Position numbers and translations under genes: made by a program | Notes under the pieces: generated by a model | The model's input: only the letters and a program-made list of their open reading frames with translations | Told to the model about the DNA's origin: nothing | The model's database searches: none | IMG/VR virus record: IMGVR_UViG_3300046170_000248 | Location: 1 to 37,959 of that record | Length of the DNA stretch: 37,959 nucleotides | Origin: a virus | Strand: one strand, 5' to 3' | Shown: one piece after another, positions 4,237 through 7,902 of the stretch | How positions within the stretch are numbered: the stretch's first letter is position 1 | How the letters are laid out: each line of letters opens with the position of its first letter

Positions 4237-4496
4237 TGACGGGGAGCATGATAGCAAGCGCAGTTCGATATATGGAAAGCATCAAGGACAAGGTGCCGCC
4301 AGCATACGAGGAGGCAATCACCGTAAAGCCCGGCACGACCCATCTCAAAACTTTAGGTCTCGACCCTCACAAAATGGTCAAGGATGTGAATAAGCTGAAG
4401 GCAAAGGGGATGACGGTAAAGGATGCTTGCCAGCAAGTGGGCATGACTAGGGCGCAATACTACAAAACTAAGAAAGGAATCACAAACAAGAAATGA
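4236..4496 (+). CDS. Small HTH protein
   Basis: Encodes 86 residues. The C-terminal third (MTVKDACQQVGMTRAQYYKT) is a clear helix-turn-helix of the resolvase/Hin-like or small-terminase-like sort. The N-terminal half is not recognised. Its start overlaps the previous stop (TAATG) and its stop overlaps the next start (ATGA). It is probably a DNA-binding regulator working with the HTH gene upstream. The real terS lies at 36.2-36.8 kb, so a packaging role is unlikely. Confidence 0.55.
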   Translation: MTGSMIASAVRYMESIKDKVPPAYEEAITVKPGTTHLKTLGLDPHKMVKDVNKLKAKGMTVKDACQQVGMTRAQYYKTKKGITNKK

Positions 4497-4706
4497 AAAC
4501 CATACAGCAATACCGAAAGGACAACCCGCACCTGTCAGAAGAGCAGATGCATTCTGCCTTACCACGTGACAGAGATTGATGCGCCTGAGTTCGCCGTGAG
4601 CGGCTTCACGCTCATTGCGCCCGGTAGGTGTCTCGCTATCCATGGAAGCGGCAATATAGCCCCTTTACGGCTCAAGGGGAGCTATGGTGACGCGTCTGAT
4701 GAGTAG
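4494..4706 (+). CDS. Small protein, unknown (frameshifted)
   Basis: Starts MKTIQQYRKDNPHLSEEQMH. After a shift near 4560 it continues YHVTEIDAPEFAVSGFTL and ends GSYGDASDE at 4706; about 70 residues. The ATG overlaps the stop of the previous gene. No family is recognised. The 3' end overlaps the start of the promoter region for the following RNA. A CTGATGAG string here is codon sequence, not a ribozyme core. Confidence 0.45.
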
Positions 4707-4719
4707 TGTGTTATAATGC

Positions 4720-4748
4720 TTGACAAGTTTAAGAAACTTATTTAATAC
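4720..4748 (+). promoter_or_regulatory. Promoter for candidate small RNA
   Basis: A perfect TTGACA (4720-4725) is followed after 17 bases by TAATAC (4743-4748). A second -10, TATAAT (4712-4717), lies just upstream with a poor -35. Initiation would be near 4755, immediately before the first hairpin of the RNA below. Confidence 0.55.
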
Positions 4749-4754
4749 ATACAA

Positions 4755-4867
4755 TCATAGCAGCAATGCTACCGTGTCGAAGGCGGATCAGTTTAACTTT
4801 CCCCGCTTGTTTTTACAAGCAACTTTAAACCCTTCCTACAGCTCGACATGTAGGAGGGGGTTTTTTT
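4755..4867 (+). ncRNA. Candidate phage small RNA, ~113 nt
   Basis: Three clean hairpins lie in a row. The first is TAGCA-GCAA-TGCTA (4758-4771), a five-pair stem closed by a GNRA tetraloop. The second is GCTTGT-TTTT-ACAAGC (4805-4820). The third is an 11-pair terminator stem (4830-4859) followed by seven T. A consensus promoter ends just upstream. Between hairpins 1 and 2 lies about 33 nt of unpaired sequence that could be an antisense seed. No open frame of note is present. This is the layout of a trans-acting bacterial sRNA. The target is unknown. Confidence 0.6.
4830..4867 (+). terminator. Intrinsic terminator of the small RNA
   Basis: CCCTTCCTACA (4830-4840) pairs with TGTAGGAGGGG (4849-4859) across an 8-nt loop, with one G-U pair. 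TTTTTTT follows at 4861-4867. This is one of the strongest terminator signals in the window. Confidence 0.85.
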
Positions 4868-5220
4868 ATGCCCATACAGTCTAGCGGAGCAAGCGGCCTC
4901 ACAGGTTAGCCCAAGTCTGCAAACGGAACCCGAAGCGTAGCTTCTAGGTTCTAGTGGTTGCACTATCTTGACCGAAATTGCGGATAGAGCGTAACAGGTG
5001 GTTTCTTCGGAAACTGAAACACCGTCCCGTAGCTTATACAGCACTTACCACGGCCAAGCGGGGCAATATGAAACGGCGGCAGGCTCATACGATTTGAGGC
5101 TCACTCCAATGACATAGTTTTATCCTACATGGTGAAACTATGTCTGGACAACAGGACTCGCCGATTTGATTGAGGCCAAGTCGCAGCATCAGAGAAAACA
5201 AAGTTTCTTTAGAAACTAGG
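4868..5220 (+). ncRNA. Folded gene-free block, candidate large structured RNA
   Basis: About 350 bases without a credible gene. Perfect local helices occur one after another: GAACC-C-GAAGC/GCTTC-TA-GGTTC (4926-4951), directly followed by TAGTG-GTTG-CACTA (4952-4965); GGTG-GTTTC-TTCG-GAAAC closed by CACC (4997-5023); CTCA/TGAG (5084-5098); the 10-pair GACATAGTTT/AAACTATGTC (5111-5144); and AGTTTC-TTTA-GAAACT (5202-5217). A long-range pairing GGCCTCA (4895-4901) with TGAGGCC (5171-5177) could close the whole fold. I do not recognise a group I or II intron, RNase P, tmRNA or tRNA. The strand is inferred from the neighbours. Confidence 0.45.
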
Positions 5221-5230
5221 ACGTTTCTTC

Positions 5231-5259
5231 TTGACCATACAAATACCTTTCCCTTACAT
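5231..5259 (+). promoter_or_regulatory. Possible promoter upstream of GIY-YIG gene
   Basis: TTGACC (5231-5236), 17 bases, TTACAT (5254-5259). The spacing is ideal, the -35 good and the -10 weak. The next gene starts at 5293 after an A/C-rich leader. Confidence 0.35.
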
Positions 5260-5292: not shown

Positions 5293-6225
5293 ATGATAGA
5301 CCACACATCAAACATTCAATTAAATGTAAACGATCTTTACCGAAGAGACAGCATCGAGTGGATCGGTATATTAACTTACAGGATGGGAAGGCTGCAAGCT
5401 GACTACATCAAAGTTATACGCGGAGTCGAGGGAACATTTTTCATCGTTGACCTTCCCGGTGACATGAGGCCAAAGGGGTTTCCCAAATCCCTAATAGGTA
5501 ACAAGGCTGGCGACCTCAACGGGGCAATTTCTATGATGGAACTTAATGATCAATACAGTAGCATTGACTGGGCTAATCCAATCGTAGACTTTGATGATCA
5601 TGGCGTGTCTTTTGCAGACAAGGCGCAGGAGCTTTACGAGCTTCAACAGTTTGCCATTTCCAATGGTAGTGACATCGGAATCTTTGGCCAATGCTTCATC
5701 GCCCAGGCTGACGAAGACATGGGTGAATTAATTAATACATTGATGAAAGACTCTTGCCGAAACCCATGTATTAATTGCCGTAAAATGTCAGATGGTTTGA
5801 CGGAATACTTTGGTGAAATGTATGACTCTAAAAAAGCTAAAGAGGTGGAGAGAGAACGGGTTGAACTGTTCCACGAAAATCTTGAACTTAAACGTAAGAT
5901 TGCTAGACTGGAAAGTAGACTAAACCCATCGACACCAGAGCCATCAGTTCAATACACCAAGCCCAACAGGTTGAGCAATGTGTATATCATGAAGGACAAT
6001 CACAATGGGCTTTATAAGATCGGAAAAAGCAAGAACCCAAAAAGAAGAGAGCGCACCCTTCAATCCGAGAAGCCATCAATTCAAATGGTCTTCAATGCGC
6101 CAGAGAGTCCAGACTTGTCCGAGCGCACCTTGCACAATGAATTTGCCGATCAAAGGTGCAGAGGTGAGTGGTTCTCACTATCCCCTGCCCAAGTCAGATA
6201 TATCTGCCACCAATTCAACTCCTAA
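5293..6225 (+). CDS. GIY-YIG (T5orf172/Mug113-like) domain protein
   Basis: Encodes 310 residues. The C-terminal ~85 residues are a T5orf172-type GIY-YIG nuclease-like domain: VYIMKDNHNGLYKIGKSKNP (the Y...YKIG signature), RRERTLQSE, then ERTLHNEF and GEWFSL. Before it, residues ~195-215 form a coiled coil (FHENLELKRKIARLESRL). The N-terminal ~190 residues contain a CxNCRK motif (about residues 158-163), perhaps metal-binding, but otherwise no known fold. This domain class occurs in phage and mobile-element proteins and is thought to bind or cut DNA. The gene follows the gene-free structured block and has its own A/C-rich leader. Start ATG at 5293. Confidence 0.75.
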   Translation: MIDHTSNIQLNVNDLYRRDSIEWIGILTYRMGRLQADYIKVIRGVEGTFFIVDLPGDMRPKGFPKSLIGNKAGDLNGAISMMELNDQYSSIDWANPIVDFDDHGVSFADKAQELYELQQFAISNGSDIGIFGQCFIAQADEDMGELINTLMKDSCRNPCINCRKMSDGLTEYFGEMYDSKKAKEVERERVELFHENLELKRKIARLESRLNPSTPEPSVQYTKPNRLSNVYIMKDNHNGLYKIGKSKNPKRRERTLQSEKPSIQMVFNAPESPDLSERTLHNEFADQRCRGEWFSLSPAQVRYICHQFNS

Positions 6226-6234
6226 GACAAAACT

Positions 6235-7001
6235 ATGAACTTAAAAACAGAATACCAAAACTGCCCTCATTGATCTTGAACTGATCTCTTACTCTCATGC
6301 GGCTAAGGCTGAGTCAACCGGCACGGGTCTCAAAAGCCTTGTAGAGATGGTAGAGTTTACCATACAAAGTGTGGTCTCTGCTTGCCGCGCACAGAAGCAT
6401 TACCTGGTGGTGTCGGGACGCAACAACTTCCGCAAGGTTTTGTATCCAGACTACAAGGCTGGCAGACGTGAGAAGCCACCTCTCTATGCCCCATTGATGG
6501 ACAAGCTGGAGGAGTTGAACCGCTCTCGCTGGTGCAAGCACGACCAACTGGAAGCGGATGATCTGCTTGGTATCATGCTCACGAACGGAAGGGTTAAAAA
6601 CCCAATCCTTTGCAGCATAGACAAGGACTTACTTGGTGTCCCCGGTTGGCACTACAACTGGAACAAGGACGACTGGCCTCGTGAGGTTACGCAGGGTGAG
6701 GCAGACCATCATTGGTTGGTTCAGTTGCTCATGGGAGATTCAACCGACAACATTGAGGGGATGAAGGGGATTGGAATTGCTAAGGCCGAGAAGTTAGTTC
6801 GCCGCTTACTACGATAAGACAGGGGTCTTAGACGCAGCACCCGTTGCATCAGCAAAAGAAATTTACGAATCCGAAGGTTTTAGTCTTGACGCATATACGA
6901 AGTGCCTCATGCTCGCCTCTATCTGGAGGGCACCAATGCCACCAGAGCTTTTAGAAAACGAACTTATCTCGGAGGTGGTGAAGACCATTCCTAGCCTATA
7001 A
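6235..7001 (+). CDS. 5'-3' exonuclease (T7 gp6/FEN-like), two frameshifts
   Basis: The rejoined protein is about 255 residues. The start is ATG at 6235 (MNLKTEYQ), with a shift near 6260 into ALIDLELISY. Core motifs follow: NFRKVLYPDYKAGR (substrate-binding), EADDLLG (metal-binding acids), SIDKDLLG, and GDSTDNIEGMKGIGIAKAEK, the helix-hairpin-helix-like DNA-binding segment of the family. A second shift near 6810 restores YYDKTGVLDAAP and the C-terminus PSL at 7001. Such exonucleases remove RNA primers and process recombination intermediates. It lies 8 bases before the next gene. Both shifts look like sequencing errors. Confidence 0.85.
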
Positions 7002-7008
7002 ACCAAAC

Positions 7009-7902
7009 ATGAGCAAACCAAAACTAGCAATTAGCTTCAGCGGGGGTCGCACTTCCGCCGTTATGACCAAGCTCTGCGTCGAGAAGTTTTCTGATACGCA
7101 CGACATTGCGATTACCTTTGCCAACACGGGGAGCGAGCATGAGAACACATTGAAGTTTGTGGATCAATGTGACAAGCACTTCGGTTGGAACGTAGTTTGG
7201 GTTGAGGCAGTTGTGAATCCAGAAAAAGGCAAAGGCATACGCCATAAGATCGTAGACTTTGAGACGGCAGCTAGGAACGGCGAACCATTAGAGGCTGACT
7301 TCGCGAAGCATGGACTTCCTGGCCCGGGTTGGTTGCATTGCACCAGAGACACGAAGGAGCTTCCTATTAAAGATTACCTGAGGTCTGTGCTAGGATGGAA
7401 ATGGGGAGACTTTTGGATTGCCATTGGCATACGATCCGACGAGGTCGATAGGGTGAGTGCCAATCGCAAGAAACTCAAATTTGTTTACCCACTCGTCGAT
7501 GCTGGATGGACGAAGGACGATGTTAAGAGGGAGTGCGCCTCTTGGCCTTTTGACTTAGATTTGAAGGGCGAGCATTACGGAAACTGCACGTGGTGCTGGA
7601 AGAAAAGTTTACGCAAACACCTAACGCTCGCCAAGGAAAGCCCGGAGGTCTTTGACTTTCCGCGTTTGATGGAGGAAAAGTATTCTCACATCACCGCACC
7701 GAACGACCCGAACTCCCAACGTCAAATGTTCCGCAAGCACATGACTACGGTGGACATAATTGAGATGGCTAAGACAACAGACTTTGAGCCATACGTTGAC
7801 ACCGACCAGTTAGACTTTGGATTTAGTCAGCCAAGCTACGATGTTTTTCTTGACACTGGTTCTTCTTGTGGTGAGTCTTGCGAGATTGGAGCAGATGAAT
7901 GA
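7009..7902 (+). CDS. PAPS-reductase-like (PP-loop) protein
   Basis: Encodes 297 residues. The PP-loop SFSGGRTSAVM (about residues 9-19) binds ATP or an adenylated substrate. FANTGSEHENTL follows as in PAPS reductases. Cysteines at LHCTRDT, GNCTWCWKKS and near the C-terminus (CGESCE) could hold an iron-sulfur cluster or act in catalysis. Phages often carry such proteins; proposed roles are sulfur metabolism or nucleic-acid thiolation, none proven. Here it lies between the exonuclease and a small membrane protein with a 4-base overlap (ATGA). Start ATG follows AAACCAAAC. Length fits the phage family. Confidence 0.85.
   Translation: MSKPKLAISFSGGRTSAVMTKLCVEKFSDTHDIAITFANTGSEHENTLKFVDQCDKHFGWNVVWVEAVVNPEKGKGIRHKIVDFETAARNGEPLEADFAKHGLPGPGWLHCTRDTKELPIKDYLRSVLGWKWGDFWIAIGIRSDEVDRVSANRKKLKFVYPLVDAGWTKDDVKRECASWPFDLDLKGEHYGNCTWCWKKSLRKHLTLAKESPEVFDFPRLMEEKYSHITAPNDPNSQRQMFRKHMTTVDIIEMAKTTDFEPYVDTDQLDFGFSQPSYDVFLDTGSSCGESCEIGADE

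Follow-up and report, generated by a model that had tools for sequence, protein, structure and literature searches.

A conserved phage RNA in which a hairpin loop covaries with the terminator loop, and its possible role as the leader of exchangeable large RNAs

What is encoded by the approximately 580 noncoding bases that lie, in an uncultured phage, between a small gene (4494-4709) and a GIY-YIG-type open reading frame (5293-6225)? The window analyzed here is a virus record of 37,959 bases, with early genes on the + strand and structural genes on the − strand converging near 14.2 kb. Its early genes include a 5′-3′ exonuclease and a PAPS reductase, and its helicase is named after the homologous DnaB-like helicase of phage C75C1. 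A sequence-only reading had proposed that the locus is the complete transcription unit of a discrete small RNA of about 113 nt, made of a promoter, two hairpins and a terminator, with 33 unpaired nucleotides free to pair with host or phage mRNA. The comparisons described below indicate a conserved RNA with a different center of gravity: a hairpin inside the supposedly unpaired stretch, whose loop is complementary to the loop of the terminator, in an RNA that stands directly ahead of a second, larger one. The coordinates are collected in Table 1.

Table 1. Features of the RNA locus in the window and starts of the corresponding slot in four relatives
Feature	Position	Strand	Remarks
Extended −10, TGTTATAAT	4709..4717	+	Candidate promoter, start near 4725; TG(T/A)TATAAT kept in main clade
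TTGACA with weak −10 TAATAC at 17 bp	4720..4748	+	Candidate promoter, start near 4752-4755
P1, 5-bp hairpin TAGCA-GCAA-TGCTA	4758..4771	+	GNRA loop; optional; two pairs with both-sided changes
P2, hairpin CCGU-loop-RCGG	4772..4786	+	Loop nucleotides 4775-4780 (UGUCGA) complementary to 4843-4848; not noticed in the sequence-only reading
P3, hairpin GCTTGT-TTTT-ACAAGC	4805..4820	+	Optional; GCTTG..CAAGC stem invariant in main clade
P4, intrinsic terminator	4830..4867	+	11-bp stem 4830-4840/4849-4859, 8-nt loop, T7 at 4861-4867
Terminator-loop half of the kissing interaction	4843..4848	+	UCGACA x UGUCGA
Type A large structured RNA	4876..5176	+	266-309 nt in relatives; ends approximate; missed in the sequence-only reading
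CTTGACC promoter-like site	5230..5253	+	Upstream of exonuclease region; kept after the large RNA in relatives; function putative
Slot start in L004	from 4542		
Slot start in L033	from 1238		
Slot start in L211	from 12106	−	
Slot start in L212	from 7287		

Fold of the short RNA and pairing between two of its loops

Positions 4755-4867 fold at −37.4 kcal/mol, compared with −24.1 ± 3.4 kcal/mol for shuffled sequences (z = −3.97). The GNRA-capped hairpin (P1), the second hairpin with a T4 loop (P3) and the terminator ending in seven T are present as the sequence-only reading had described them, and it was correct in finding no reading frame: stretches that begin with ATG reach at most 34 aa, relatives differ from one another by indels of 1-2 nt, and no frame is conserved in the short RNA. 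The loop of P1 is GCAA, GAAA or GAGA among relatives. In P4, 10 of the 14 consensus stem pairs show changes on both sides, the U-tract is conserved, and the site is the best + strand terminator-like sequence in the first 14.5 kb, where the sole other + strand match, at 7522, is weaker. The expectation that the hairpins would keep their pairing in relatives holds for the terminator, and also for P2, but not for P1 and P3, which come and go. The 33 nucleotides are not all unpaired, for P2 lies among them and pairs through its loop with the loop of the terminator.

The complementarity between the two loops was first spotted by eye, and the statistics were computed afterwards. An automatic parse that sought a P2 stem with a T-run and A(C/T)AGT downstream of it gave 29 sequences, 27 of them real and two of them antisense artefacts (L056 − and L211 +); P2 is common to the 27 distinct homologues parsed, which were themselves found through the P2 stem pattern. 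Across these 27 distinct P2 and terminator sequences, nearly all pairs of loops form 5-8 Watson-Crick pairs despite wholesale sequence change. Besides the type seen in the window there are UGUCAAG x CUUGACA, UGUCGCG x CGCGACA and UGUAGUG x CACUACA, and further CAUGCGG x CCGCAUG, UUAUGCG x CGCAUAA and GUCAGAG x CUCUGAC. The loops covary over 19 distinct loop pairs, and the mean observed in the parsed set was reached by none of 3001 permutations, even with the two artefacts included. A separate comparison gave a mean of 6.6 for a loop and its own partner and 3.4 for pairs drawn across types. The exceptions are L302, with 4 pairs, and L051, with 5 Watson-Crick pairs and one G-U, whose loops are apparently a hybrid of two types. 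As judged by eye, as many as 3 further bp in the P2 arm join the pairing in some types.

A distant clade keeps the core of the RNA with new, compensated loops (GUCGAG x CUCGAC, GUUGAG x CUCAAC and GUCUAG x CUAGAC); the loops of L282, GUUGAG x CUCAAC, represent a C-G to U-A swap. This clade is a more independent check of the kissing contact, the model that found it having contained no kissing pairs. On the model alignment A3, whose related sequences are not independent and whose fit included the stems but left out the kissing pairs, 96.8% of the cells of the whole structure are paired and 17 pairs have changed on both sides. The covariation score of 0.463 compares with 0.177 in shuffles and was matched by none of 500; all six slid versions of the structure fail. 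Five of the seven kissing pairs in A3 show both-sided changes, and the counted pairs of the P2 stem never vary. Counting in a single register misfits the register of the L011 type, and the kissing helix thereby drops to 88% paired.

A third site that follows the loop type, searched for with type-specific loop words in the flanks of 15 contigs, was not found, nor in those contigs was any other phage site that could serve as partner. We therefore conclude that the partner of each loop is most likely the other loop, either within one RNA or between copies. The loop sequences change freely while their complementarity stays, on which ground a reading of them as a DNA operator was rejected. If the contact is made between copies, the RNA could assemble into dimers or rings, in the manner of phi29 pRNA or of the GOLLD and ROOL complexes; each RNA carries two complementary, covarying loops, and kissing loops between molecules are known from other phage RNAs (PMC12286853). 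One of the loops, however, is that of a terminator, the linker of more than 40 nt in the window allows the contact to form intramolecularly, and we see no link to a packaging motor; we consider such assemblies highly improbable. It also seems very unlikely that P4 serves only to terminate the upstream early operon, with the hairpins incidental. Its strength and its position at the end of the upstream gene would fit that role, but a plain terminator needs no second hairpin covarying with it over so many loop pairs, and no conserved promoter just ahead.

Relatives and the minimal core

Fifty-five loci with a related helicase were fetched, of which about 20 span the RNA region. The short RNA is kept in about 20 main-clade IMG/VR contigs, and the phage group that carries it is uncultured and mostly marine. 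A covariance model (R1) built from an alignment of 18 sequences recovers the main-clade copies together with six copies in phages whose helicase is 61-63% identical, scoring 60.8 bits for L298 and L299 and 40-43 bits for L284, L291, L273 and L282. P1 is missing in L284, L291 and L298, and P3 in L284 and L291; P2, the kissing loops and the terminator are retained in all three. Comparison of the sequences thus shows a minimal core consisting of the predicted P2 and terminator, so what has been conserved is not a seed in the single-stranded stretch between them. The stretch that had been proposed as a seed for mRNA pairing contains P2 and is rewritten or lost in these distant relatives. A core as small as that of L284 and L291, with loops that vary freely, also argues against a ligand pocket of the riboswitch kind. 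Little sequence separates the TTGACA site from P2 in L284. In the more distant L036 and L040, a promoter-like site, a structured RNA and a terminator occupy this position and are followed by an open reading frame.

The RNA family is absent from Rfam and from the annotated phage records searched. When the window was compared with Rfam 15, nothing reached the gathering threshold, the best permissive match being anti-hemB at 15.6 bits where 49.5 are needed. Neither this region nor the locus of the distant clade had a convincing DNA match in the phage collection, and C75C1, the nearest annotated phage (48% of the helicase shared), gave no match to the covariance model. A pattern scan with GGCAGMAATGCCACCG returned mostly unrelated contigs among the matches listed. 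Among open-licence papers we found none on a phage small RNA with a kissing loop and a terminator hairpin. The helicase has its best cellular relatives on short contigs, one in a Flavobacterium single-cell scaffold (51%) and one in a Euryarchaeota bin (67%); possibly both are phage DNA in the sample.

In our judgment the conserved phage RNA is real, its structure has very good support, and the short RNA likely exists as a transcript.

Promoters and the slot behind the terminator

The perfect TTGACA that the sequence-only reading had noted is present at 4720-4725 and is kept in the main and L056 clades. The −10 element that it had placed at a spacing of 17 bp fares less well: TAATAC agrees with the consensus at 3 of 6 positions and is not among the sites returned by a promoter scan. 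Just upstream of TTGACA lies a perfect extended −10. With so weak a −10 and a conserved, perfect extended −10 upstream of it, the canonical 17-bp-spaced promoter is weakened as the sole start; transcription could begin near 4725, giving an RNA of about 143 nt, or near 4752-4755, giving one of about 115 nt. Main-clade relatives have a dyad, CAAGTTT-N-AAACTTG, in the region of TTGACA and the −10 element. A sequence TTGAC(A/C) with TATAAT 7 nt later, a spacing that is non-canonical for sigma-70, recurs ahead of RNAs in L272, L316, L322, L273, L036 and L212. In L033 (942-1060), a second promoter-like site (TACCGCTTGACAAGTT) is followed by a further short RNA-like stretch and by a terminator, directly upstream of the conserved leader.

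The terminator ends about 10 nt ahead of the type A RNA in the window, and in relatives the large RNA follows the T-run by about 5-15 nt. The 5′ part of type A reads ACAGT(C/T/A)TA.CGGAGCAAG, and 19 of its 57 predicted pairs show at least one both-sided compensatory change among 16 sequences; single-sequence folds are modestly better than shuffles (z of −1.6 and −1.1), which is not significant alone. In other relatives, the slot behind ACAGT holds type B together with a GIY-YIG open reading frame (L004, L006 and L045), type C (L033 and L211, 81% identical over 54 nt) or type D (L212). Large RNAs of at least four unrelated types, all structured in appearance, thus occupy the slot; types B and D are represented by one sequence type each and are classed as structured from sequence appearance and folding. 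A reading of the large modules as group I or group II introns was set aside by eye, and had no support from Rfam, which matched nothing in the large RNAs apart from a separate tRNA in L004. A scan of bacterial genomes gave no exact match to the large-RNA motif.

No promoter belonging to the large RNA is visible after the terminator or, in a search by eye only, inside the short RNA. In L272, L316, L321 and L322, which have no short RNA, TTGAC-N7-TATAAT stands directly before the start of the large RNA (ACAGTTTATCGG), and the short RNA with its terminator is therefore an optional cassette between promoter and large RNA. These arrangements bear on a rival reading, that of a free-standing small RNA: the terminated RNA would be the sole functional product and act in trans on host or phage mRNAs, the large RNA being independent of it. 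A compact, conserved fold, a U-rich stretch before a strong terminator and the lack of a reading frame would suit a trans-acting RNA. Against this, the proposed seed is partly P2 and does not persist in distant relatives, the large RNA would be left with no visible promoter, and the flanks searched contain no third partner for the covarying loops. The covariation in many relatives gives good support to a structured, terminated short RNA, but a free-standing one with a 33-nt seed is not supported, and we regard that reading as rather unlikely.

A leader reading, its parallels and the neighboring genes

We lean, with modest confidence, toward a leader whose kissing-loop terminator would both yield the short RNA and gate the large one. 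Comparison of the sequences supplies the elements on which this proposal is built: the hairpins, the covarying pairing between loops, the adjacency to the large RNA, the relatives with fused promoters and, as a matter of anatomy only, a terminator that separates the type A RNA from the candidate promoters. Transcription would start near 4725 or 4752. Termination would be partial or regulated, with most transcripts stopping at 4861-4867 to give a short RNA of about 115-143 nt, compact and probably stable, and with read-through transcripts entering the type A RNA from 4876 onwards; because no separate promoter for the large RNA is visible, the terminator would set the amount of it. We suspect that the kissing contact tunes termination, stabilizes the RNA or does both. 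Formed early, it may delay closure of the terminator hairpin; formed late, it may lock the finished terminator or stabilize the released RNA, and it could simply stabilize the finished RNA. The only general pairing is that between the loops; by eye, no conserved antiterminator pairing with the terminator stem was seen, and therefore no classical switch is visible. The relatives that carry the large RNA without the leader indicate that gating is not essential.

There are partial precedents for such a leader. From one promoter, the IsrK locus of the Salmonella prophage Gifsy-1 produces a short RNA by termination and a longer one by read-through (PMC4825925), and one phage promoter would do the same here; the read-through product of IsrK, however, is an mRNA that short IsrK activates in trans, whereas the downstream product here would be a noncoding RNA, and the hallmark here is the pairing of the P2 and terminator loops. 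Attenuators of the pT181 type (PMC4878617) are likewise 5′ leaders that end in an intrinsic terminator and use kissing hairpins, with specificity possibly set by the loops; in those, the kissing partner of the leader is a distinct antisense RNA, and it is an antiterminator that ties up the terminator stem, whereas here both loops belong to one RNA and no conserved antiterminator has been seen. The downstream large RNAs invite comparison with GOLLD and ROOL (PMC12286853), large structured phage RNAs of unknown function, some of them marine and with kissing loops, although GOLLD RNAs are often longer than 800 nt and the structures are unlike those found here.

What defines the family is a hairpin upstream of the intrinsic terminator whose loop is in covarying contact with that of the terminator itself, in a leader that precedes a noncoding RNA and not a gene. 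Two questions can thereby be tested: whether a terminator is tuned by tertiary contacts made with its loop, and why phages retain a slot behind one and the same leader in which large structured RNAs of unrelated kinds are exchanged. The CI RNA immunity of phage P4 offers a further likeness, in that a short RNA of the phage is connected with termination within its own leader; CI RNA works by linear complementarity and is not known to involve kissing of a terminator loop.

By analogy, we also speculate that the loops could act as a phage-specific password, the released short RNA controlling in trans the termination of a nascent leader of the same type, with the P2 loop of one RNA meeting the terminator loop of another from the same phage type. 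In antisense-controlled plasmids, changes in loops create new incompatibility groups. A password would account for loops that change beside a P2 stem that hardly varies and, if true, would provide type-specific copy sensing or superinfection control of the variable large-RNA locus. We think it quite unlikely that the leader works in this way.

Several features of the neighborhood were recorded alongside the RNA. No tRNA was found in the window; in L004, a tRNA gene that contains a long insert lies at 6196-6314, downstream of the RNA locus, and similar sequence occurs in L027 and L031. The GIY-YIG-type open reading frame of the window (MUG113/T5orf172) is absent from the same spot in most relatives and is a probable mobile, homing-type gene. 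The small gene upstream of the RNA has one extra base near 4559 compared with all aligned relatives, which breaks its frame and reflects either a mutation or a sequencing error. The frame of the 5′-3′ exonuclease (approximately 6245-6998) is also broken relative to the seven relatives checked, with a shift near 6760-6790, and this is another sign of indel errors or decay.
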